NCBI GenBank assembly: GCA_903893815.1
Contig: CAITNS010000053.1
Coordinates: 62,001-126,000, forward strand
DNA from: an uncultured Bacteroidota bacterium
Lineage (GTDB): Bacteria; Bacteroidota; Bacteroidia; B-17B0; Aurantibacillaceae
Length of the DNA: 64,000 bases
Direction of reading: 5' to 3'
The notes beneath the pieces were generated by a model that saw only the letters and a list, made by a program, of their open reading frames with translations, was not told the origin of the DNA and ran no database searches. The first letter of the stretch is position 1; each line of letters starts with the position of its first letter. A program made the position numbers and the translations under genes. Positions 6,631-55,455 of this stretch are shown here, piece after piece.

Positions 6631-6700
6631 CCGAAAAGATCGCTATGTTTTTTCGCAAAGAAAGCAGAGAAAGAAGAGTTTTAGTCTTTGGTGCTTAAAC

Positions 6701-6767
6701 TAGCCCCGATTGCAGCGGTATACTTTTTGGCTTTTTTCATAGCCAAAAAGATAAAGCGGAAAGCGGG
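6701..6767 (+). ncRNA. structured intergenic element (nested hairpin), possible small RNA or terminator
   Basis: Between the helicase and the aminotransferase there is a compact element. CTTTTTGGCT (6723-6732) and AGCCAAAAAG (6741-6750) form a perfect 10-bp stem with an 8-nt loop. It is enclosed by TAGCCCCGAT...GCGGTAT and ATAAAGCGGAAAGCGGG, in which CCCG (6705-6708) can pair with CGGG (6764-6767). From memory, very similar blocks occur in many flavobacterial intergenic regions. A relation to the Rfam Flavo-1 motif is possible but unverified. The flanking CGCAAAGAAAGCAGAGAAAG at 6654-6673 resembles the CGCAAAG repeats at 843. Confidence 0.4.
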
Positions 6768-6851
6768 AAAAAGTTCCAAATTATTTTCATAGTCAAGCGA
6801 TTAAAGTTTAGCAAAATCGTTATATTCGCATGATACAATTTGAAGCATAGA

Positions 6852-32985: not shown

Positions 32986-33041
32986 CAAAGCAAAGTTGCT
33001 TTTTTATGTTTTAGGAGCGTTTTTACAATGTTTATTAAAAG

Positions 33042-33073
33042 TTTGCATAGTGTATATATTTATTATACATTTG
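33042..33073 (+). promoter_or_regulatory. Bacteroidota-type promoter TTTG-N20-TACATTTG
   Basis: TTTG at 33042-33045 and TACATTTG at 33066-33073 are separated by 20 bases, matching the sigma-A-type consensus of this phylum. Transcription would start near 33080, about 40 bases before ATG 33122. This supports the short form of the downstream gene over the longer frame from 32996. Confidence 0.6.
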
Positions 33074-33121
33074 TTAGTATTGCTCGCCTCCACTTTTAAA
33101 ATCAAACAAATTAAACCATCT

Positions 33122-33643
33122 ATGAGATTTGATATAAAAAACCAGTTACACTTACTTTTTTGTTGCGTTTTTTTGTTGTTTAATTTGGCCTCAAAGGCTC
33201 AACTTAATACACCAAACGTTATTGCCTCAGCAGGAGGATATTTTTCAAATTCAAATTTTTCAAATTCATACACCATTGGCGAAATGTGTGTGGTTGAAAC
33301 CGCCTTCATAAATGGCGATATGCTTACGCAAGGATTTCAGCAACCCGATTACGAAGTTGAATCAGATGTTATTGAACCGGAATTTTTTATACCTAATGGT
33401 TTTTCGCCAAATGGTGATGGCTTTAACGATACGTGGGATATTCCTTATTTAAATCAATATCCTGATAGCAAGGTAAAAGTATTTAACCGTTGGGGACAAG
33501 AACTATACAGTAGCAATGGAAACTCGAACCCTTGGAATGGCACTTTTAAGGGAAAAGATTTACCAACAGCCGATTACTATTATATTATAGTTATAGAACA
33601 ATTAGAAAAAAAATTAACAGGAACCGTAACTCTTAAAAAATAA
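33122..33643 (+). CDS. secreted protein with type B (CHU_C) T9SS sorting domain
   Basis: A 173-residue protein: signal peptide (about 5-28, ending SKAQ), a short region IASAGGYFSNSNFSNSYTIGEMCVVETAFINGDMLTQGFQQPDYEVE, then a CHU_C domain from about residue 90. That domain shows GFSPNGDGFNDTWDI, VFNRWGQELY, PWNGTFKG and LPTADYYYIIV. The GFQQP segment before the sorting domain is typical of small T9SS-exported proteins. The frame is open to TTG 32996, but ATG 33122 starts a proper signal peptide. A broken copy of its first half lies at 42103. It precedes the collagen-like gene by 19 bases. Confidence 0.82.
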   Translation: MRFDIKNQLHLLFCCVFLLFNLASKAQLNTPNVIASAGGYFSNSNFSNSYTIGEMCVVETAFINGDMLTQGFQQPDYEVESDVIEPEFFIPNGFSPNGDGFNDTWDIPYLNQYPDSKVKVFNRWGQELYSSNGNSNPWNGTFKGKDLPTADYYYIIVIEQLEKKLTGTVTLKK

Positions 33644-33662: not shown

Positions 33663-35666
33663 ATGAAAATCAAAAACCTACTATTAATTTTTACACTTGC
33701 CTTATTTGCAAAAAGTTTTGCGCAAGCTCCGCAAGCCATTAACTATCAAGGTGTAGTGCGTAATGCAGCGGGTAAACCTTATCCTAATCAAAATGTAGCT
33801 TTGCAAATAAGCATACATGCCAATACAGCAACTGGTAATATTATTTATAAAGAAGCCCATGCTGCCACTACAAATACTATTGGCTTATATGCACTGCAAA
33901 TTGGAAGAGGAACATCCACTGTTGGAACCTTTAGCGCGATTGCTTGGGGTACATCATCTTTTTATATGGAAGTTGAAATGGATATTAATGGCGGTACCAA
34001 CTACGTTAGTGCAGGGACTACCGAATTAATTTCTGTACCTTATGCCTTATATGCGCAAACAGCTGGCAGCTCAATACCCGGCCCACAAGGACCGGTAGGG
34101 CCACAAGGCCCAATTGGTTTAACGGGAGCAACTGGTGCTCAAGGTATTCAAGGTTTAACAGGTGCTACAGGTCCACAAGGTCCAATTGGTTCAACGGGAG
34201 CAACTGGTTCAGTTGGTGCTACCGGAGCAACAGGACCTCAAGGACCTCAAGGTTTAACAGGCGCTGCAGGTCCACAAGGTCCAATTGGTTTAACGGGAGC
34301 TACTGGTTCAGTTGGTGCTACCGGAGCAACTGGACCTCAAGGAATTCAGGGCTTAACAGGCGCAACAGGTCCACAAGGACCAATTGGTTTAACGGGAGCT
34401 ACTGGTTCAGTTGGTGCCACTGGAGCTACAGGCGCAACGGGTCCACAAGGCCCAATAGGTTTAACTGGCGCTACAGGCCCACAAGGTCCAATTGGTTTAA
34501 CGGGAGCTACTGGTTCAGTTGGTGCCACTGGTGCTCAAGGTATTCAAGGTTTAACTGGTGCTACCGGCCCACAAGGCCCAATTGGTTTAACGGGAGCAAC
34601 TGGTTCAGTTGGTGCTACTGGAACAACAGGACCTCAAGGTTTAACAGGCGCTACAGGTCCACAAGGTCCAATTGGTTTAACGGGAGCTACTGGTTCGGTT
34701 GGTGCAACAGGAGCTACAGGCCCACAAGGACCAACAGGTTTTTTAACCAATGGATCAGTAGCAGGAAACACGCCGTATTGGGATGGCACAAACTGGGTTA
34801 CTAATAGCAGCAATATTTTTAATAATGGAGGTAATATTGGCATTGGGACAATTACTCCCGATGTTTCTGCATTAGCAGAACTAAATTCATTTAATAAAGG
34901 ATTCTTGCCGCCGCGAATGACATCAGTGCAGCGTGATGCAATATTATCACCAGCAATTGGCCTAGTTATTTTTAATACAACAACCAATTGTTTAAACTTT
35001 TTCGTTGGTATTGGTTGGAATGAGACTTGTGGAACAACAATAATACCTGGTTACCCCTCTGGCTCGGTTTTTTGCAACAGTCCCACTGTGATTTTAGATT
35101 TGCTGAGCCCTACAACAGGTAAAACTTGGATGGACAGAAATTTGGGTGCCACACAAGTTGCCGCTAGTAGCACAGATGTCAATTCATACGGATATTTGTA
35201 CCAGTGGGGTAGAAGAACAGACGGGCACCAGTGCAGAACATCTGCTTCCACAACTACGCTTAGCGGCATTGACCAACCTGGAAATGGTAATTTCATCATA
35301 GCCCCAAACTCGCCATTCGACTGGCGCAGTCCACAAAACACTAACTTGTGGCAAGGGGCAAATGGAGTAAACAACCCATGCCCCGGGGGTTATAGATTAC
35401 CAACCGAAATTGAGTTGGATGCTGAAAGAGCAAGTTTTAGTGCCCAAAACAGTTCTGGTGCTTTTGCTTCACCGCTGAAATTCACCCAGGGTGGGCTTCG
35501 AAGTAATGTCGGTGGTTCATTCAACTTTGTTGGGTCCAGCGGTTTTTATTGGTCGAGTACGATTAGCGGTACTGATAGTCGTCGGCTAGGATTCAATAGT
35601 GCTGGTGCTAATTTGAATCCAAGTACTCGTGCAGATGGTTACTCTGTTCGATGTATTAAAAATTAA
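33663..35666 (+). CDS. collagen-like repeat protein with C-terminal FISUMP domain
   Basis: A 667-residue secreted protein. Signal peptide at 1-21. A beta-rich N-terminal domain ([27 protein letters not shown], about 24-135) is seen before many Bacteroidota surface repeats. About 73 Gly-X-Y triplets span roughly 139-358. A linker with [23 protein letters not shown] follows, then a FISUMP/C-type-lectin-like domain (about 466-667) with [34 protein letters not shown] and SVRCIKN. It is probably a surface adhesin or fibre. No T9SS sorting domain is seen at its end. A 169-residue helical protein gene follows. Confidence 0.8.
34078..34740 (+). repeat. collagen-like Gly-X-Y tandem DNA repeat
   Basis: About 660 bases of 9-bp-based repeats arranged in larger near-identical blocks, e.g. 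CCACAAGGTCCAATTGG then TTAACGGGAGC and ACTGGTTCAGTTGGTGC, encoding ([21 protein letters not shown])-like strings. High DNA identity between blocks implies recent expansion or slippage, so copy number probably varies between strains. Confidence 0.85.
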
Positions 35667-37830: not shown

Positions 37831-39708
37831 ATGAAAAAATTTATAAAATATAGTTTAGTAGTTGTAGCGTTATGTTTTGCTGTTACAACAATTTTTGCCC
37901 AACAACAAAATCGTTTCACTCAGTTTATGTGGAACGAGTATGTCATTAATCCTGCTTATACAGGTGCTTTGGCGTATAACCCTGTGCAGCTTACCTATCG
38001 CAAACAATGGCAAGGGTTTAATGGTAGCCCCGAAACATTTACTTTTGGCGGGCATACGGCACTTAACGCAAAAATGGGTTTAGGAGCTATGGTGTTTAAA
38101 GATAATATGGGTGGCGCCATTACTCAAACAGGTATTATGGTTAATTATGCCTATCGGGTGCGTTTAAATAATCAATCTAATTTATCGTTTGGCTTAAGTG
38201 GTATTATTAATCAGTTTGCATTTGATAACACAAAAATTAATGCTTTAAATGCCAACGATCCAAGTTTTCAGGGCGGTATTCAAAAAAGTACTGCACCCGA
38301 TGCTATATTTGGTATCTTATATACATACAAACAAAAATTAAATATTGGTTTTAGTTCTTCGCAATTAGTACAAAGCAAACTCAAAAACTTAAACGATTTA
38401 CCTGGTGCTAATAATCGTTTAATACGTCATTACAACGCTCAATTATCCTATAAATTTATTGTGAATGATAAATTTAATATTGAGCCATCGTTATTAGCAA
38501 AAGCAACAGAGGTAACTCCCATGCAGTTAGATTTAAATTTAAGAGGCTGGTATCAAAATATATTAATGCTTGGTTTTACGTATCGTCACCAAGATGCTTT
38601 TGCTGCGTTGTTAGGAGTGAAATACAAAAATATGTTTGTTGGTTATAGTTATGATGTGAGTACATCAGCCATTCAATCTTACAATAATGGTTCACACGAA
38701 ATTGTGATGGGCTATCATTTTGCTGCAAAAACAACAGACAGCGATAAAGATGGTGTATTAGATCATAAAGATAAATGTCCGGATGCAGCGGGGCCAAAAG
38801 AAAACAATGGTTGTCCTTGGGGAGATACAGATAATGACGGTGTAGCTGATAATTTGGATAAATGCCCGGATGCAGTTGGTCCAAAAGAAAACAATGGTTG
38901 CCCTTGGAGAGATACAGATAATGATGGTGTTGCTGATAATATAGATAAATGCCCGGATGCTGTTGGTCCAAAAGAAAACAATGGTTGCCCTTGGAGAGAT
39001 ACAGATAATGATGGTGTTGCTGATAATATAGATAAATGCCCGGATGCTGTTGGTCCAAAAGAAAACAATGGTTGCCCTTGGGGCGATACAGACAATGATG
39101 GCGTTGCGGATAATTTGGATAAATGCCCGGATGCTGTTGGACCAAAAGAAAACAATGGCTGCCCTTGGGGAGATACGGATAATGATGGTGTTGCGGATAA
39201 TTTGGATAAATGCCCAGATGTTGCAGGTTCAAAAGAAGACAATGGTTGCCCATCAAAAGATACTGATAAAGATGGAATTATTGATAAATTGGATAATTGC
39301 CCAATGACGATGGGAGATGCTAAAAATGGTGGATGTCCAATAGTAACCGATAATCAAAAAGCCATTATCAGTAAAGCCATTAGTAATTTAGAGTTTGAAA
39401 ATAATAGTGGAAACATTGCTAAGGGTTCATTTATAGCATTAGACATGTTAGCCATTTTATTATCAGAAAAAAGTGATTGGAAAATGCGTTTTGCAGGGCA
39501 CACGGATAATGTTGGTAATGATGAATTTAACATGACCTTAAGTAAACAACGTTCGGAGGCTGTGAGAGATTACTTAGTAAAAAAAGGAATTGGTACTGAA
39601 CGACTTTTTGCAGAACATTACGGAGAAACAAAACCAATTGCACCAAACACTACTCCGCAAGGCCGAGAAAAAAACAGAAGGGTTGAAATGACTTTTGTGT
39701 TTGATTAA
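37831..39708 (+). CDS. PorP/SprF barrel fused to TSP3 repeats and an OmpA domain
   Basis: A 625-residue three-part protein. Signal peptide 1-23. A PorP/SprF beta-barrel (about 24-300: RFTQFMWNEYVINPAYTGAL, YRKQWQGFNGSPETF). Seven thrombospondin type 3 calcium-binding repeats (about 304-500) with D-x-D-x-D-G-V-x-D-x-x-D-x-C-P. An OmpA/MotB peptidoglycan-binding domain (about 515-625: MRFAGHTDNVGNDEFNMTLSKQRSEAV). It would place a T9SS-associated barrel in the outer membrane with a tether to peptidoglycan. The separate PorP paralogue at 4231 lacks the two C-terminal modules. The start is ATG 37831. Confidence 0.88.
   Translation: MKKFIKYSLVVVALCFAVTTIFAQQQNRFTQFMWNEYVINPAYTGALAYNPVQLTYRKQWQGFNGSPETFTFGGHTALNAKMGLGAMVFKDNMGGAITQTGIMVNYAYRVRLNNQSNLSFGLSGIINQFAFDNTKINALNANDPSFQGGIQKSTAPDAIFGILYTYKQKLNIGFSSSQLVQSKLKNLNDLPGANNRLIRHYNAQLSYKFIVNDKFNIEPSLLAKATEVTPMQLDLNLRGWYQNILMLGFTYRHQDAFAALLGVKYKNMFVGYSYDVSTSAIQSYNNGSHEIVMGYHFAAKTTDSDKDGVLDHKDKCPDAAGPKENNGCPWGDTDNDGVADNLDKCPDAVGPKENNGCPWRDTDNDGVADNIDKCPDAVGPKENNGCPWRDTDNDGVADNIDKCPDAVGPKENNGCPWGDTDNDGVADNLDKCPDAVGPKENNGCPWGDTDNDGVADNLDKCPDVAGSKEDNGCPSKDTDKDGIIDKLDNCPMTMGDAKNGGCPIVTDNQKAIISKAISNLEFENNSGNIAKGSFIALDMLAILLSEKSDWKMRFAGHTDNVGNDEFNMTLSKQRSEAVRDYLVKKGIGTERLFAEHYGETKPIAPNTTPQGREKNRRVEMTFVFD
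38763..39260 (+). repeat. 90-bp tandem repeats encoding TSP3 units
   Basis: Five to six near-identical 90-bp copies encode a 30-residue unit of the type KENNGCPWGDTDNDGVADN. The units beginning near 38902 and 38992 appear identical. Adjacent copies differ by few silent or conservative changes, indicating recent duplication and possible length variation. Confidence 0.8.
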
Positions 39709-41961: not shown

Positions 41962-42102
41962 TATTATTAAATAATATGAGCCATAATTTTTGTTATTTCC
42001 CTTTAAGCAAGTAATTTCGCAGCTTATATGCTACCATACCCCGCTGCATTTGTAATGCTGCGGAATAATCACACTAATAATTAATGCGCCTCGAGCCAGT
42101 TT

Positions 42103-42371
42103 ACACCAAACGTTATTACCTCAGCAGGAGGATATTTTTCAAATTCGTACACCATTGGCGAAATGTGTGTGATTGAAACCGCCTTCATAAATGGCGATAT
42201 GCTCACGCAAGGATTTCAGCAACCCGATTACAAGGTTGAATCAATTGGGATGGCGGAGGATATTCTGCAGGTACGTATTTTTATATTTTAGAGGCTAAAG
42301 GCGCTGATACTCAAGAAGTCTCAAAAAAACAGGCCGACACAATAGACAAAGCCCGCAACCGGAGCGATTAG
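42103..42371 (+). pseudogene. relic of a CHU_C T9SS-sorted protein gene
   Basis: Bases 42103-42242 repeat 33209-33364 of the gene at 33122 with few substitutions, minus one 15-bp internal tandem unit, and read IASAGGYFSNS-like codons through GFQQPDY. No start codon or signal peptide is attached. At 42243 the sequence switches frame into WDGGGYSAGTYFYILEAKGADTQE, the end of a CHU_C domain, stopping at 42369-42371. The central PNGDGFND...NRWGQ part is missing. It is a broken paralogue or recombination scar, not a working gene. Confidence 0.75.
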
Positions 42372-42379
42372 CGGGCTTT
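42348..42379 (+). terminator. terminator-like hairpin at the end of the CHU_C relic
   Basis: AAAGCCCGC (42348-42356) pairs with GCGGGCTTT (42371-42379) over a 14-nt loop. The following bases (ATATTCG) are only partly T-rich. It probably terminated the ancestral gene. Confidence 0.55.
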
Positions 42380-42550
42380 ATATTCGATTAAAAACTGACA
42401 AAATTACTTTTGAGACAGCCGCATCCTTTTTTTTTGGGGGGAAAAATAAACAGCTTTACAATTTAAAATCCATATTTTGGAATTTTTTAATGTTAAGAAA
42501 TCGTTATCATTAATTATTAGTTAGGTTCGCTAAAAATTATAAATTTTTGT

Positions 42551-43128
42551 GAAATAGCCATGTTTGCTAAAACACAAACACATCCCAATAGCTATCGGGA
42601 GAAGATAAACTAGCTAAACCATATGACTCCCGGTAGCTATCGGGATAAAAAACAATAATATCTACTTATGAAATAGCCATGTGCCGAAACGCACAAACAC
42701 ATCCCGATAGCTATCGGGAGAAGATAAACTGGCTAAACCATATGACAACTAAAAAACAATAATATATACATATGAAATAGCCATGTTTGCTAAAACACAA
42801 ACACAAATCAAGATAAACTGGCTAAAACATATGACAACTAAAAAACAATAATATCTACTTATGAAATAGCCATGTGCCGAAACGCACAAACACGAAGGAA
42901 GATACATGGCGTATACCATATGACAACTAAAAAACAATAATATCTACATATGAAATAGCCATGTGCCGAAACGCACAAACACGAAGGAAGATACATGGCG
43001 TATACCATATGACAACTAAAAAACAATAATATCTACATATGAAATAGCCATGTTTGCTAAAACACAAACACAAATCAAAATAAACTGGCTAAAACATATG
43101 ACAATTAAAAACAATAATATCTACATAT
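42551..43128 (+). repeat. six tandem copies of an ~89-bp leader unit before the CotH gene
   Basis: Units begin GAAATAGCCATG at 42551, 42670, 42774, 42863, 42952 and 43041, with lengths 119, 104, 89, 89, 89 and 88. The longer ones contain one or two TCCCGATAG/CTATCGGGA palindromes, each adding 15 bases. Each unit holds a stem (GCCATGT.../...ACATGGC or TAGCCA.../...TGGCTA), CATATGAC or TATACCATATGAC, an A-run, CAATAAT, eight bases and ATGAAAT. In the array ATGAAATAG is a start-Lys-stop; after the last unit ATGAAAT opens the CotH gene. The stretch 42380-42550 before it holds nothing I can identify. Confidence 0.9.
42583..42719. repeat. three palindromic mini-elements inside the leader array
   Basis: TCCCAATAGCTATCGGGA (42583-42600), TCCCGGTAGCTATCGGGA (42628-42645) and the perfect TCCCGATAGCTATCGGGA (42702-42719). 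Comparison with uninterrupted units shows that the first and third replace AAATC and the second replaces AAC, a net gain of 15 bases each. Confidence 0.75.
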
Positions 43129-45346
43129 GAAATCTTTATTACGACTTTTCTTTTTATTTTTTATTTCTTTTACAGCTAATGCACAAACGGATCATTGGGA
43201 AACAGTTGTGTATGAAAACAATATATGGAAATATGTGGTTCCCACATCTGAACCGGATACTAATTGGCGAAAAACAACATTTACACCAACAAGTTGGCTA
43301 AGTGGTCAAGGAGGTTTTGGCTTTGGTGATTCAGATGATAATACGACTTTTCCGCAAGCTACTTCAGTCTATATTAGAATTGTTTTTAATATTTCAGATA
43401 CGTCAAAAATTTCTGCAGCAATTTTAAATGCCGATTATGATGACGGTTTTGTAGCCTACCTTAATAATACAGAAATTGTAAGAGCTAATATGCCAACTGG
43501 TGCTCGCCCTCCTTATAACACCTTTGCCTCTGGTAATCATGAGGCTGTTATGTATAGTGGCGGAAACCCAAATTATTTTAATATTACTCAATCCGCACTT
43601 CATGGTATTATTCGAAACGGTACAAATGTTTTAGCCATACAAATACATAATGTAACCGCAACTTCTTCTGACCTTTCCTCACGTTTTTGGTTAAGTTTCG
43701 GGATAAAAAATACGTCAGTTTATTTTGGCACACCACCTAGTTGGTTTAATGGACCTGTTGATTTTGTTTCCTCAAATCTTCCTATTATTGCCATTAATAC
43801 AGGAACTCAAACCATTATCAATGGCACAAAAATTACAGCTGATATGGGTATCATATATAATGGGCAAGGAGTGAGAAATTATGTAACTGATCCCAAAAAT
43901 CATTATAACGGTAAAATTGGGATTGAAATAAGAGGACAGTCATCACTAAATTTTGCTCAAAAACAATATAATGTTGAAACGAGAGATATCGTAGGAAATA
44001 ATTTAGATGTATCGCTATTTGGAATGAGTAAAGAAAATGATTGGGTTTTGTATGCACCATATAATGATAAAACTTTAATGCGAAATGTTATTACATATCA
44101 ACTAGCTCGTGAAATGGGAAGGTGGGCTGCACGAACTCGTTTTTGTGAAGTGACAATAAATGGCGAATACAAGGGTGTATACGTTTTTATGGAAAAAATA
44201 AAACGTGATTCTGCAAGAGTTGATGTTAAAAAAATGAATAATCTTTATAATACAGGTGATTCACTTACCGGTGGTTATATAATTAGTATTGACAAAGATA
44301 CTCCAACATGGTACTCTGCCGTTACACCTAACAATGCTACAGCAAACCAGCAAATAGGCTTTACTATTCAGTATCCTGATTTAGCTGATGTAACTGTGCC
44401 GCAAAAGAATTATATTAAATCCTACGTAGATAGTTTTGAAACAGCACTAAATAGTGTCAACTTTCAAGATCCTTTAAACGGTTATCGAAAATATGCAGTG
44501 GTAAAATCATTTGTTGATTTTTTTATCATCAACGAATTTACACGTAATGTTGATGGATATCGTTTAAGTACTTTTTTACATAAAAACAGAAATAGCAAAG
44601 GTGGGCAAATAAAAGCCGGGCCAGTTTGGGATTTTAACTTAGGATTAAAAAATGCCAATTATTGTAATGGTTCTGATACAACCGGTTGGGCTTATAAATT
44701 TAACAATGTGTGTCCATCCGATAATTGGGTTGTTCCTTTTTGGTGGGATAAGTTAGTTGCTGATAGTTCTTTCTCTAATAAATTATATTGTAAATACACA
44801 GACTTAAGAACTAACTTGTTAGATACAACTGTGTTGTTTGCAAAAATAGATTCAATGGTTTCTGAAGTAAATGAGGGGCAGGTAAGACACTTTGCAAAAT
44901 ATCCAATTTTAGGAGTTTATGTTTGGCCTAATCCTTCCCCATATCCTCAAACTTTTAGTGCCGAAATTAGGAGCATGAAAAAATGGATTTATAAACGTTT
45001 ATTGTGGTTAGATGCTAATATGTATGGTACAGGGCCTTGTAGCGTGCCAATTTTTGCAGGTAATATAAAAAATAGTAGTAAAGATATTAATGCATATATT
45101 TATCCAAATCCATTTATAAATAATATTCATCTTGAATTGGATATTCCAAGTGAAGGATATTACCAAATAGCCCTATATGATGCGCAAGGAAAAATGATTA
45201 CAGTTTTAACAAAGGATTACTTTGAAAAAGATGCGTTTGGTTTTAATTGGAATTTTAGTAAATATAATTTACAAGCTGGTCTTTATTTTTTACAAGTTAA
45301 AGGTGATAAATCAATTAAAAACTTTAGGATAATTAAAGGAGAATAA
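43127..45346 (+). CDS. CotH family kinase-like protein with T9SS type A sorting domain
   Basis: A 739-residue secreted protein. Signal peptide 1-19 (ending ANAQ). A beta-rich N-terminal domain (about 25-195: GGFGFGDSDDNTTF, DYDDGFVAYLNNTEIVRANM) precedes a CotH domain (about 260-600: IEIRGQSSLNFAQKQYNVETRD, EYKGVYVFMEKIKRD, VWDFNLGLKNANYC). The last 85 residues are a type A sorting domain (IYPNPFINNIHLEL, YDAQGKMI, GLYFLQVKGDKSIKNFRIIK). CotH of Bacillus is an atypical protein kinase; secreted Bacteroidota homologues are uncharacterised. The start codon is the last repeat of the 89-bp leader array, so translation is probably tuned by it. Confidence 0.9.
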   Translation: MKSLLRLFFLFFISFTANAQTDHWETVVYENNIWKYVVPTSEPDTNWRKTTFTPTSWLSGQGGFGFGDSDDNTTFPQATSVYIRIVFNISDTSKISAAILNADYDDGFVAYLNNTEIVRANMPTGARPPYNTFASGNHEAVMYSGGNPNYFNITQSALHGIIRNGTNVLAIQIHNVTATSSDLSSRFWLSFGIKNTSVYFGTPPSWFNGPVDFVSSNLPIIAINTGTQTIINGTKITADMGIIYNGQGVRNYVTDPKNHYNGKIGIEIRGQSSLNFAQKQYNVETRDIVGNNLDVSLFGMSKENDWVLYAPYNDKTLMRNVITYQLAREMGRWAARTRFCEVTINGEYKGVYVFMEKIKRDSARVDVKKMNNLYNTGDSLTGGYIISIDKDTPTWYSAVTPNNATANQQIGFTIQYPDLADVTVPQKNYIKSYVDSFETALNSVNFQDPLNGYRKYAVVKSFVDFFIINEFTRNVDGYRLSTFLHKNRNSKGGQIKAGPVWDFNLGLKNANYCNGSDTTGWAYKFNNVCPSDNWVVPFWWDKLVADSSFSNKLYCKYTDLRTNLLDTTVLFAKIDSMVSEVNEGQVRHFAKYPILGVYVWPNPSPYPQTFSAEIRSMKKWIYKRLLWLDANMYGTGPCSVPIFAGNIKNSSKDINAYIYPNPFINNIHLELDIPSEGYYQIALYDAQGKMITVLTKDYFEKDAFGFNWNFSKYNLQAGLYFLQVKGDKSIKNFRIIKGE

Positions 45347-54289: not shown

Positions 54290-54378
54290 TATGAACTATT
54301 CATCATATAAACAAAAACATCTGATAATAAGGATGATGAATATACCATGTGGCTATAAAAAAACAATAATGTTTTCAC
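54290..54378 (+). promoter_or_regulatory. single diverged copy of the leader unit upstream of trhO
   Basis: It is laid out like the 89-bp units before the CotH gene: an upstream ATGAA (54291), hairpin ATTCATCAT/ATGATGAAT (54298-54306, 54333-54341), TATACCAT (54341-54348), A-run, CAATAAT (54364-54370), eight bases, ATG (54379). The stem sequence is wholly different from the CotH units while its position and pairing are kept. The upstream ATG would open a 39-codon frame overlapping the trhO start. Confidence 0.6.
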
Positions 54379-55455
54379 ATGAAAATGCCAGAATTAAGAA
54401 ACCGTATTAACAAAGACGAGCTAAAAGTTCGTTTAGCTCAAGAAAAAATTGAGCGTATTACTTTCTCTTTTTACAGATATGTTAAAATTGAGGATCCCAA
54501 AGAATTACGTGATAATTTATTTATTCAATGGACCAATTTAAACTGCTTTGGTAGAATTTATGTAGCTCATGAGGGAATTAATGCTCAAATGAATTTACCA
54601 AAAAGTAATTGGGATAACTTTGTAGCACAATTATATAAAGATGAGCGCTTTAATAATGTACCATTTAAAATTGCCGTTGATGGTAATGGAAAATCTTTTT
54701 ACAAACTCATTATTAAAGTAAAAGAAAAAGTAGTTGCCGATGGCATTAATGACCCCACCTTTGATGCAGCAAATACAGGAACATACCTAAACGCTGAAAA
54801 CTTTAATAAAGCCATTGAAAATCCAAATACCATTGTGGTGGATATGCGTAACCATTACGAAAGCGAAGTTGGCCGTTTTGATAAAGCTTTTTGCCCTGAT
54901 GCAGATACTTTTAGAGAGGAATTACCTTTGGTAGTTGACCATTTAAAAGGCCAGGAAGACAAAAAAGTGATTATGTATTGCACTGGTGGCATCCGTTGTG
55001 AAAAAGCAAGTGCATATTTAAAACATAAAGGATTTAAGGATGTGAATCACCTGCAAGGTGGCATTATACAATATGCTAAAGAAGTAAAAGAGCAAGGTTT
55101 AGAAAGTAAATTTAGAGGAATTAATTTTGTATTTGATGAACGCATTGGAGAGCGCATTACCGAAGATATTTTATCAAACTGCCATCAATGCGGCAAAGCA
55201 TGTGATACACATGTGAATTGCAAAAATGATGATTGTCACTTATTATTTATTCAGTGTGATGATTGTACTAAAAAAATGCAAGGATGTTGTACTCCTAAAT
55301 GTCAGGAAATAGCATCTTTATCTATTGAAATGCAACGAGAATTAAGGAAAGGCCGAATTAAAAAAGGAGAAGAATCTTTATCAGTCTATAAAAGTAGATT
55401 ACGGCCGAATTTAGCTGAGATTATAAAAAATAATTTATCTTTAAATAAAATTTAA
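54379..55455 (+). CDS. trhO: tRNA uridine-34 hydroxylase, rhodanese family
   Basis: TrhO (YceA) makes 5-hydroxyuridine at tRNA position 34 using oxygen. The 358-residue protein has the N-terminal UPF0176 domain (TFSFYRYVKIEDP, LNCFGRIYVAHEGINAQM) and a rhodanese domain with the active-site loop C201-TGGIRC. A C-terminal cysteine-rich extension follows (CHQCGKACDTHVNCKNDDCHLLFIQCDDC, about 270-300). ATG 54379 sits eight bases after CAATAAT, exactly as in the CotH gene leader. The lipoprotein gene begins 11 bases downstream and may be co-transcribed. Confidence 0.92.
   Translation: MKMPELRNRINKDELKVRLAQEKIERITFSFYRYVKIEDPKELRDNLFIQWTNLNCFGRIYVAHEGINAQMNLPKSNWDNFVAQLYKDERFNNVPFKIAVDGNGKSFYKLIIKVKEKVVADGINDPTFDAANTGTYLNAENFNKAIENPNTIVVDMRNHYESEVGRFDKAFCPDADTFREELPLVVDHLKGQEDKKVIMYCTGGIRCEKASAYLKHKGFKDVNHLQGGIIQYAKEVKEQGLESKFRGINFVFDERIGERITEDILSNCHQCGKACDTHVNCKNDDCHLLFIQCDDCTKKMQGCCTPKCQEIASLSIEMQRELRKGRIKKGEESLSVYKSRLRPNLAEIIKNNLSLNKI

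Follow-up and report, generated by a model that had tools for sequence, protein, structure and literature searches.

A six-unit array before a CotH gene in Bacteroidota as the probable pile-up of a mobile element that inserts at start codons

The described systems closest to the repeats reported here are the IS200/IS605 insertion sequences with their miniature derivatives, the REP sequences and REPtrons (TnpA-REP, RAYT), the IsrB/IscB (HEARO) elements and the free-standing IS605 stem-loops of Borrelia. At the left end of IS608 the order is cleavage site, guide and hairpin, with the guide lying 5' of the hairpin base and pairing with the cleavage site, and insertion is precise and beside a fixed short word (available part of PMC5934647). 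Canonical REPs carry GT[AG]G at their foot and are often found beside a transposase gene, according to the available text of PMC6006769, PMC3733652 and PMC8266576. The Borrelia stem-loops are gene-linked, come without a transposase and accompany lipoprotein genes, where they lie at gene 3' ends, as far as the available portion of PMC2775950 describes them.

The locus considered here lies in a window of 64,000 nucleotides, the whole stretch of DNA that was analysed, from an uncultured Bacteroidota bacterium. A tandem array in this window ends on the start codon of a CotH kinase family gene, and we think it fairly likely that a short, non-autonomous mobile element that inserts at start codons has piled up here, through repeated insertion and duplication. 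Its features are as follows.

42549-42551, + strand: GTG where native sequence meets the 5' end of the array, presumed to be the displaced native start (its position is that of the native ATG in the empty sites of other genes; inferred for CotH)
42551-42669, + strand: unit 1, 119 bp, TAGCCATGTTT type, with two additional CCCGATAGCTATCGGG-type palindromes (loop and tail)
42670-42773, + strand: unit 2, 104 bp, chimeric, with a GTGC-type 5' arm, a AAACTGGC-type 3' arm and a palindrome in the loop
42774-42862, + strand: unit 3, 89 bp, GTTT type
42863-42951, + strand: unit 4, 89 bp, GTGC type (94.2 bits with covariance model R1)
42952-43040, + strand: unit 5, 89 bp, the same as unit 4
43041-43129, + strand: unit 6, 89 bp, GTTT type, its final three bases being the CotH start codon (96.4 bits with R1)
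43045-43050, + strand: 5' arm of the unit 6 hairpin, TAGCCA, partner of 43086-43091 (covariation)
43086-43091, + strand: 3' arm of the unit 6 hairpin, TGGCTA (covariation)
43095-43100, + strand: guide-like CATATG at the hairpin foot of unit 6, complement of 43124-43129 (covariation)
43101-43123, + strand: A-rich tail of unit 6, the putative translation-initiation region of CotH (from sequence)
43124-43129, + strand: element end of unit 6, CATATG, made up of the CotH start codon and three bases upstream; insertion boundary
43127-45346, + strand: CotH kinase family gene with a type IX secretion sorting tail

The tandem array was confirmed at 42551-43129, with units that start at 42551, 42670, 42774, 42863, 42952 and 43041 and measure 119, 104, 89, 89, 89 and 89 bp; the six repeats of about 89 bp given in a preliminary description are therefore right in number, and right in length for four of the six. 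Tandem Repeats Finder gives 42721-43133 with a period of 89 and a score of 587, which is the portion without the two longer units. Each unit runs from GAAATA through the hairpin, ACATATGAC or a near variant, and an A-rich tail with CAATAAT to eight bases and an ATG. The five internal ATGs continue directly as AAA-TAG and the sixth, at 43127, opens the 739-codon CotH frame, as had been stated, but the base triplet preceding the first unit is GTG and no ATG. There is a second pairing in addition to the hairpin, in which the CATATG at its 3' foot is complementary to the CATATG that includes the start codon. Units 1 and 2 contain additional palindromes of the TCCCGATAGCTATCGGGA type (42583-42600, 42627-42646 and 42701-42720), nested in the hairpin loop or the tail. 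The arms of the hairpin had been said to differ together, which is true of five units; unit 2 mixes them by eye, with the 5' arm GCCATGTGC and the 3' arm AAACTGGC. Units 4 and 5 are identical and the remaining pairs share 66-96% identity, so that recombination within the array is visible both in the mixed arms of unit 2 and in the identity of units 4 and 5. The CotH start is supported by the orthologue in G004, where the signal peptide starts at the corresponding position; this orthologue, the sole intact one compared, is 83% identical and without any unit in the 400 bases shown. Upstream of the array, 42090-42270 resembles by eye a degenerate remnant of the protein that 32996-33643 encodes.

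The element resembles the IS200/IS605 family in its subterminal hairpin with a guide 5' of it on the antisense strand, in a pairing with the cleavage site, for which we infer the element's own end, and in precise insertion beside a fixed short word. It differs in having a single hairpin and not one per end, in a 6-bp guide that pairs with its own end and not clearly with the target (the guides of IS608 pair with the target), in a target that contains a start codon while the element supplies a translation start, and in the several copy-rich genomes without a Y1 match. With REPs and REPtrons it shares short palindromic multicopy repeats, arrays and mosaics, but it lacks the GT[AG]G foot, and no adjoining transposase gene was seen. 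HEARO elements reportedly adjoin ATGA. The target-adjacent motif of IsrB, given as NTGA in the available part of PMC9581776, is likewise one that ATGA fits; RRXRR matches above the cut-off are nevertheless missing from 60 genomes, and the omega RNA was sought through Rfam on the window only. Like the Borrelia stem-loops, the units are linked to genes and come without a transposase, but they are found at start codons. Because the link to a transposase that defines the IS200/IS605 and REP groups was not found, the element is not filed under either. Start-codon insertion combined with a portable leader is the unusual part.

The element belongs to a dispersed family. When the window's own genome was searched with two units (178 bases), 47 matches came up at E<=10 and 33 at E<=1e-3; many matches are followed by the beginning of a gene on the same strand. 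A covariance model, R1, built from 24 copies of an element of about 89-91 bp, has 50 matches at E<=0.1 in this 3.7-Mb genome; cmsearch omitted some array members, among them units 1, 3 and 5 of the CotH array, because adjacent units overlap. Matches at E<=0.01 occur in 16 of the 19 other genomes of the genus, at 1 to 50 copies each, and the model has no match at this threshold in G006, G009 and G013. Copy number is thus patchy inside a single genus, from 0 to 50, with 50 copies in G010, 22 in G015 and 19 in G019. When all relatives are taken together with the own genome, 31 of 60 genomes have matches, and a class-wide sample of 395 genomes contained 36 with matches (own genome included, E<=1e-4, at most 10 candidates scored per genome). 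In G014 five loci carry copies of one and the same sequence, which means that movement there was recent. The TCCCGATAGCTATCGGGA palindrome is nested in several G014 copies as well, and one such composite unit recurs unchanged at three loci of that genome, which shows spread of the composite as a whole. A phage or plasmid carrier is unsupported, since viral contigs had no match to two exact patterns and phage and plasmid records had none to one unit by blastn. Rfam gave no match for the element, at gathering thresholds over the whole window or at E<=1 over 42300-43400, and a known Rfam RNA family was rejected on these covariance models. Titles and abstracts in the literature covered, which leaves most subscription journals outside, contained no description of such an element.

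As the preliminary description had anticipated, further copies precede start codons. The 208 model matches read in fetched stretches, which were chosen by best score and not at random, came to 196 after duplicate removal and to 177 judged copies once 15 array-internal ones and 4 at contig ends had been set aside. In 144 of the 177 (33 of 36 in the own genome) the ATG that ends the copy is itself the start of an open frame of 60 aa or longer. All 33 "short" rows were counted as misses, including two possible small genes (L178 and L356) and seven cases in which another unit, overlooked by the pattern, comes next; L355 and L122, which lie 13 bases inside a gene, were likewise counted as misses. 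For comparison, 54 of 118 non-coding TATGAAA words (46%) and 130 of 311 non-coding ATGAAA words coincide with a start codon, counted over the window and 40 stretches (two relatives) with gene starts set by our own rule of frames of at least 60 aa from the first ATG, and not by annotation. From these counts, random insertion with loss of the gene-breaking events predicts about 42-46%. The start-codon preference is therefore not wholly unexplained, since the target word alone predicts about half, but the observed 81% exceeds that expectation (Fisher p 3e-10), and the remainder must come from selection or from a preference for context. The base at -1 is T in 72% of the 127 units taken as first, compared to 41% at starts generally. 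The A-richness after the ATG is partly ascertainment, as the model matches end on ATGAAA by construction.

The genes that carry copies are functionally diverse; by their N-termini we take some of them to be ilvC, gcvP, gcvT, GAPDH, thyA, hemH, lepA and folB. A coding role of the internal ATGs was rejected because the frames after the guide ATG vary in frame and length between copies, and the stop in ATG-AAA-TAG is not kept in L027, L028 and the trhO copy (both by eye). The start of the same gene can have a different element subtype in each species (L110, L380 and L137 of G000; L125 and L452; L447 and L202), as if these sites had been hit independently. A variant with the guide CAGATG and the end CATCTG lies 13 bases inside the gene start at L355 (4899-4990) and L122 (1501-1594), apparently in the same gene at both loci, and its tail repeats the first 13 bases of that gene (ATGACAACATCTG or ATGACGACATCTG).

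Sites without the element reveal the point of insertion. In 13 genes an orthologue starts with ATG and has no element in the bases shown; one of the 13, L133, depends on a weak element match, and several of the compared orthologues are merely 67-79% identical. In the filled genes the element comes after the native ATG and before codon 2 and terminates in a replacement ATG, so that insertion, judged on these 13 empty orthologues, is precise and without target duplication beyond the recognised word. The second copy in the window that had been pointed out earlier, before a trhO gene, is real (70.5 bits, with a different stem sequence, TATTCATCAT/ATGATGAATA) and is an example of such a site.

54291-54384, + strand: divergent single copy before a rhodanese-domain (TrhO-like) gene at 54379-55455; the site is empty in G004
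54346-54351, + strand: guide of this copy, CATGTG, with its partner CACATG at 54376-54381; both sides differ from the CATATG/CATATG pair

In G004 trhO reads ...cctgcaattatatctatt-ATG-AAAATGCCAG, and in the window the 27 bases and the ATG are identical, and the element separates them from ATG-AAAATGCCAG; the bases preceding the two ATGs differ (ATTATG vs CACATG). The gcvP site is also empty in G004. The ilvC site is empty in G015, G004, G014, G011, G017 and G019; G003 has one unit there, and G000 has the same unit plus a second, of a different type, on the gene side. The filled ilvC genes continue as ATGAAA and the empty ones mostly as ATGGAA, which may reflect a change of codon 2 at the time of insertion or earlier. 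None of the five testable G000 insertions is common to its close relative G015 (96% at ilvC) and five G000 insertions are common to G019, which makes turnover quick but not total. The ilvC-like gene of G000 (C43, 129191-130654, L135) is present in 9 of 41 genomes, own genome included, at E<=1e-60, and its protein is about 90% identical to Flavobacterium copies; from sequence, these two observations suggest horizontal gain.

Two helices are conserved across the family. Helix 1 is the hairpin, and helix 2 joins the six-base guide at its 3' foot to the element's last six bases, start codon included. Pairing is kept, and covaries in both helices, once more copies are aligned, which agrees with a second prediction of the preliminary description. 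In alignment A3 (56 sequences) 93.5% of cells are paired and 10 of 12 pairs have double changes, with slid partners at no more than 55.0%; in A2 (100 distinct sequences) the values are 90.7%, 9 of 12 and no more than 48.5%. Both alignments were fitted to the model, and the slid-partner controls are the guard against this. Double changes are seen in all six modelled pairs of helix 1 in A3 (91.1% of cells paired) and in five of six in A2 (85.7%), and helix 2 is paired in 95.8% of cells in both. Helix 2 is complete, with all six bases paired, in 133 of 160 units, and its types include CATAAG/CTTATG, CATACG/CGTATG, CATATC/GATATG, CATGTG/CACATG and CATCTG/CAGATG, as well as the CTG-ending CAGATG/CATCTG. 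Among units other than CATATG/CATATG, 44 of 71 are fully paired compared to a shuffled mean of 15.6 and maximum of 26 (some duplicates included), and the match of guide and end without duplicates agrees. Between guide and native target, ATG alone is constant, and three further bases match weakly (p 0.025 and 0.034).

Helices that covary over 56 and 100 distinct sequences, in copies most of which are hosted by start codons, can also be taken as a cis-regulatory RNA, in which the hairpin and the start-codon stem tune translation and the length of the array tunes CotH. In an RNA the start codon would be masked by helix 2, and each unit contributes several AUGs near the start; initiation in Flavobacterium johnsoniae is reduced by structure close to the start, and in Bacteroidetes such structure matters and extra AUGs are depleted there (PMC6847099, available part). 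Six units of the family also beat shuffles when folded as sense RNA (z -2.4 to -6.1, the last value from a unit with an extra palindrome). Four units folded as antisense DNA give a modest z of -1.4 to -4.4, weaker than the sense RNA of some units, so folding energy does not single out DNA. Many guide and end types are singletons within one genome, and these could also have arisen by compensation in place. However, the genes have mixed functions, the sites of close relatives are empty and no Rfam match is seen. Six insertions shared between G000 and G019 or G003 were compared by eye, and helix 2 is intact in both species in only two of them (L023 and ilvC). In the other four it is worse in G000, being lost at L128, with one mismatch each at L136 and in the first unit before L140, and a wobble at L124, and none of these changes is compensated. 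Helix 1 is weakened in two of these copies, L136 and the first unit before L140, in the latter through insertion of a palindrome. The tail is nearly unchanged between the shared copies L128 and L194. From these sequences it looks as if the translation start is maintained in place and pairing is needed at the time of spread. The uncompensated loss of pairing, in this small sample, favours mobility over regulation, and we consider the regulatory RNA an unlikely explanation. The earlier proposal of a control element that switches by repeat number does not agree with the copies before unrelated genes, the 13 empty orthologous sites and the uncompensated changes, and it is on these same grounds that the behaviour is that of a mobile element. 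An effect of the units on expression, including tuning of CotH by the array, is possible.

The start codon is a hazardous landing place for a mobile element. Leaders in Bacteroidota do without a Shine-Dalgarno sequence. Copies of the element begin with AAATA, followed by the hairpin, the 6-base guide, the A-rich tail and, last, a new ATG. Landing on ATGAAA would be tolerated, since the gene receives an A-rich leader and another ATG from the element and still has a start. As at the ends of IS200/IS605, the form that moves would be single-stranded DNA. The antisense strand has the order TTTCAT, tail, guide, hairpin and TATTTCAT; in this view the target would be TTTCAT (ATGAAA in the sense strand), the guide would lie 5' of the hairpin, and TTTCAT would close both ends. 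Tandem arrays would form when later copies enter at the new ATG or when recombination duplicates units.

The enzyme that might move such an element was sought among known families, and no autonomous form of the element was seen. Y1_Tnp (PF01797) has no match at E<=1e-3 in G010, G015 and G019, genomes that are 99%, 87% and 76% complete. A RAYT-like protein is present in G000, G014, G007, G011 and G005, although the copy in G007 contains a stop, and the match in G019 is broken. Mobilisation of REP-type repeats by a REP-associated tyrosine transposase (RAYT) would agree with units that are short, hairpin-bearing, interspersed, tandem and mosaic, and with the RAYT-like protein encoded in the copy-rich G000 and G014. 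The hairpin foot has no conserved GTAG (alignments A1 and A3, by eye), although the GT[AG]G foot is missing from some REPs as well, according to the available text of PMC6006769. The unit exceeds the length of a REP, neither G010 nor G015 encodes the RAYT-like protein, and nhmmer found no element at E 0.1 within about 1.5 kb on each side of 61 fetched Y1 or RAYT-like loci. Y1 or RAYT as the common mover was rejected, as it is absent in several copy-rich genomes and has no element beside those 61 loci, and we hold the REP reading to be very unlikely. An IscB/IsrB partner was rejected too: the RRXRR nuclease has no match above the cut-off in 60 genomes, and its sub-cut-off matches are in two genomes, neither in the genus. 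Reverse transcriptase, sought in 10 genomes, is absent from G010, G015 and G019 and present in the zero-copy G009 and G013, and also in G000 and G014; its presence does not track copy number, and it was rejected as a partner.

With no common mover among the families tried, one could consider a process without any enzyme of its own, in which replication switches template at the ATGAAA words that bracket the unit, promoted by the hairpin, and copies the unit to other ATGAAA sites. The bracketing words do exist, and the identical units 4 and 5 and the chimeric unit 2 reveal recombination. However, template switching leaves unexplained why guide and end covary and why identical copies stand at several loci, and it seems to us quite improbable. 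The mobile element remains our preferred reading of the array. A wider proposal, which we advance tentatively and do not expect to hold in full, is that start-codon-seeking single-stranded DNA elements occur across Bacteroidia, with a 6-base guide that matches their own end, owe their insertion at ATGAAA to an enzyme outside the recognised Y1 transposases and the RNA-guided nucleases, and have swapped the leaders of many genes. If true, it would point to an enzyme that reads a short DNA guide, and there would be a natural series of leader replacements, with 0 to 6 units, many genes and filled and empty relatives, in which one could measure how Bacteroidota choose a start site despite extra upstream AUGs.

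The window holds other repeats and one known RNA. A fusion of PorP/SprF and OmpA with thrombospondin type 3 repeats contains 6.1 copies of an 87-bp coding repeat at 38770-39302, and a 667-aa protein has collagen-like repeats at 34125-34732. A Flavo-1 RNA (Rfam RF01705, 68.5 bits) lies at 6698-6774.
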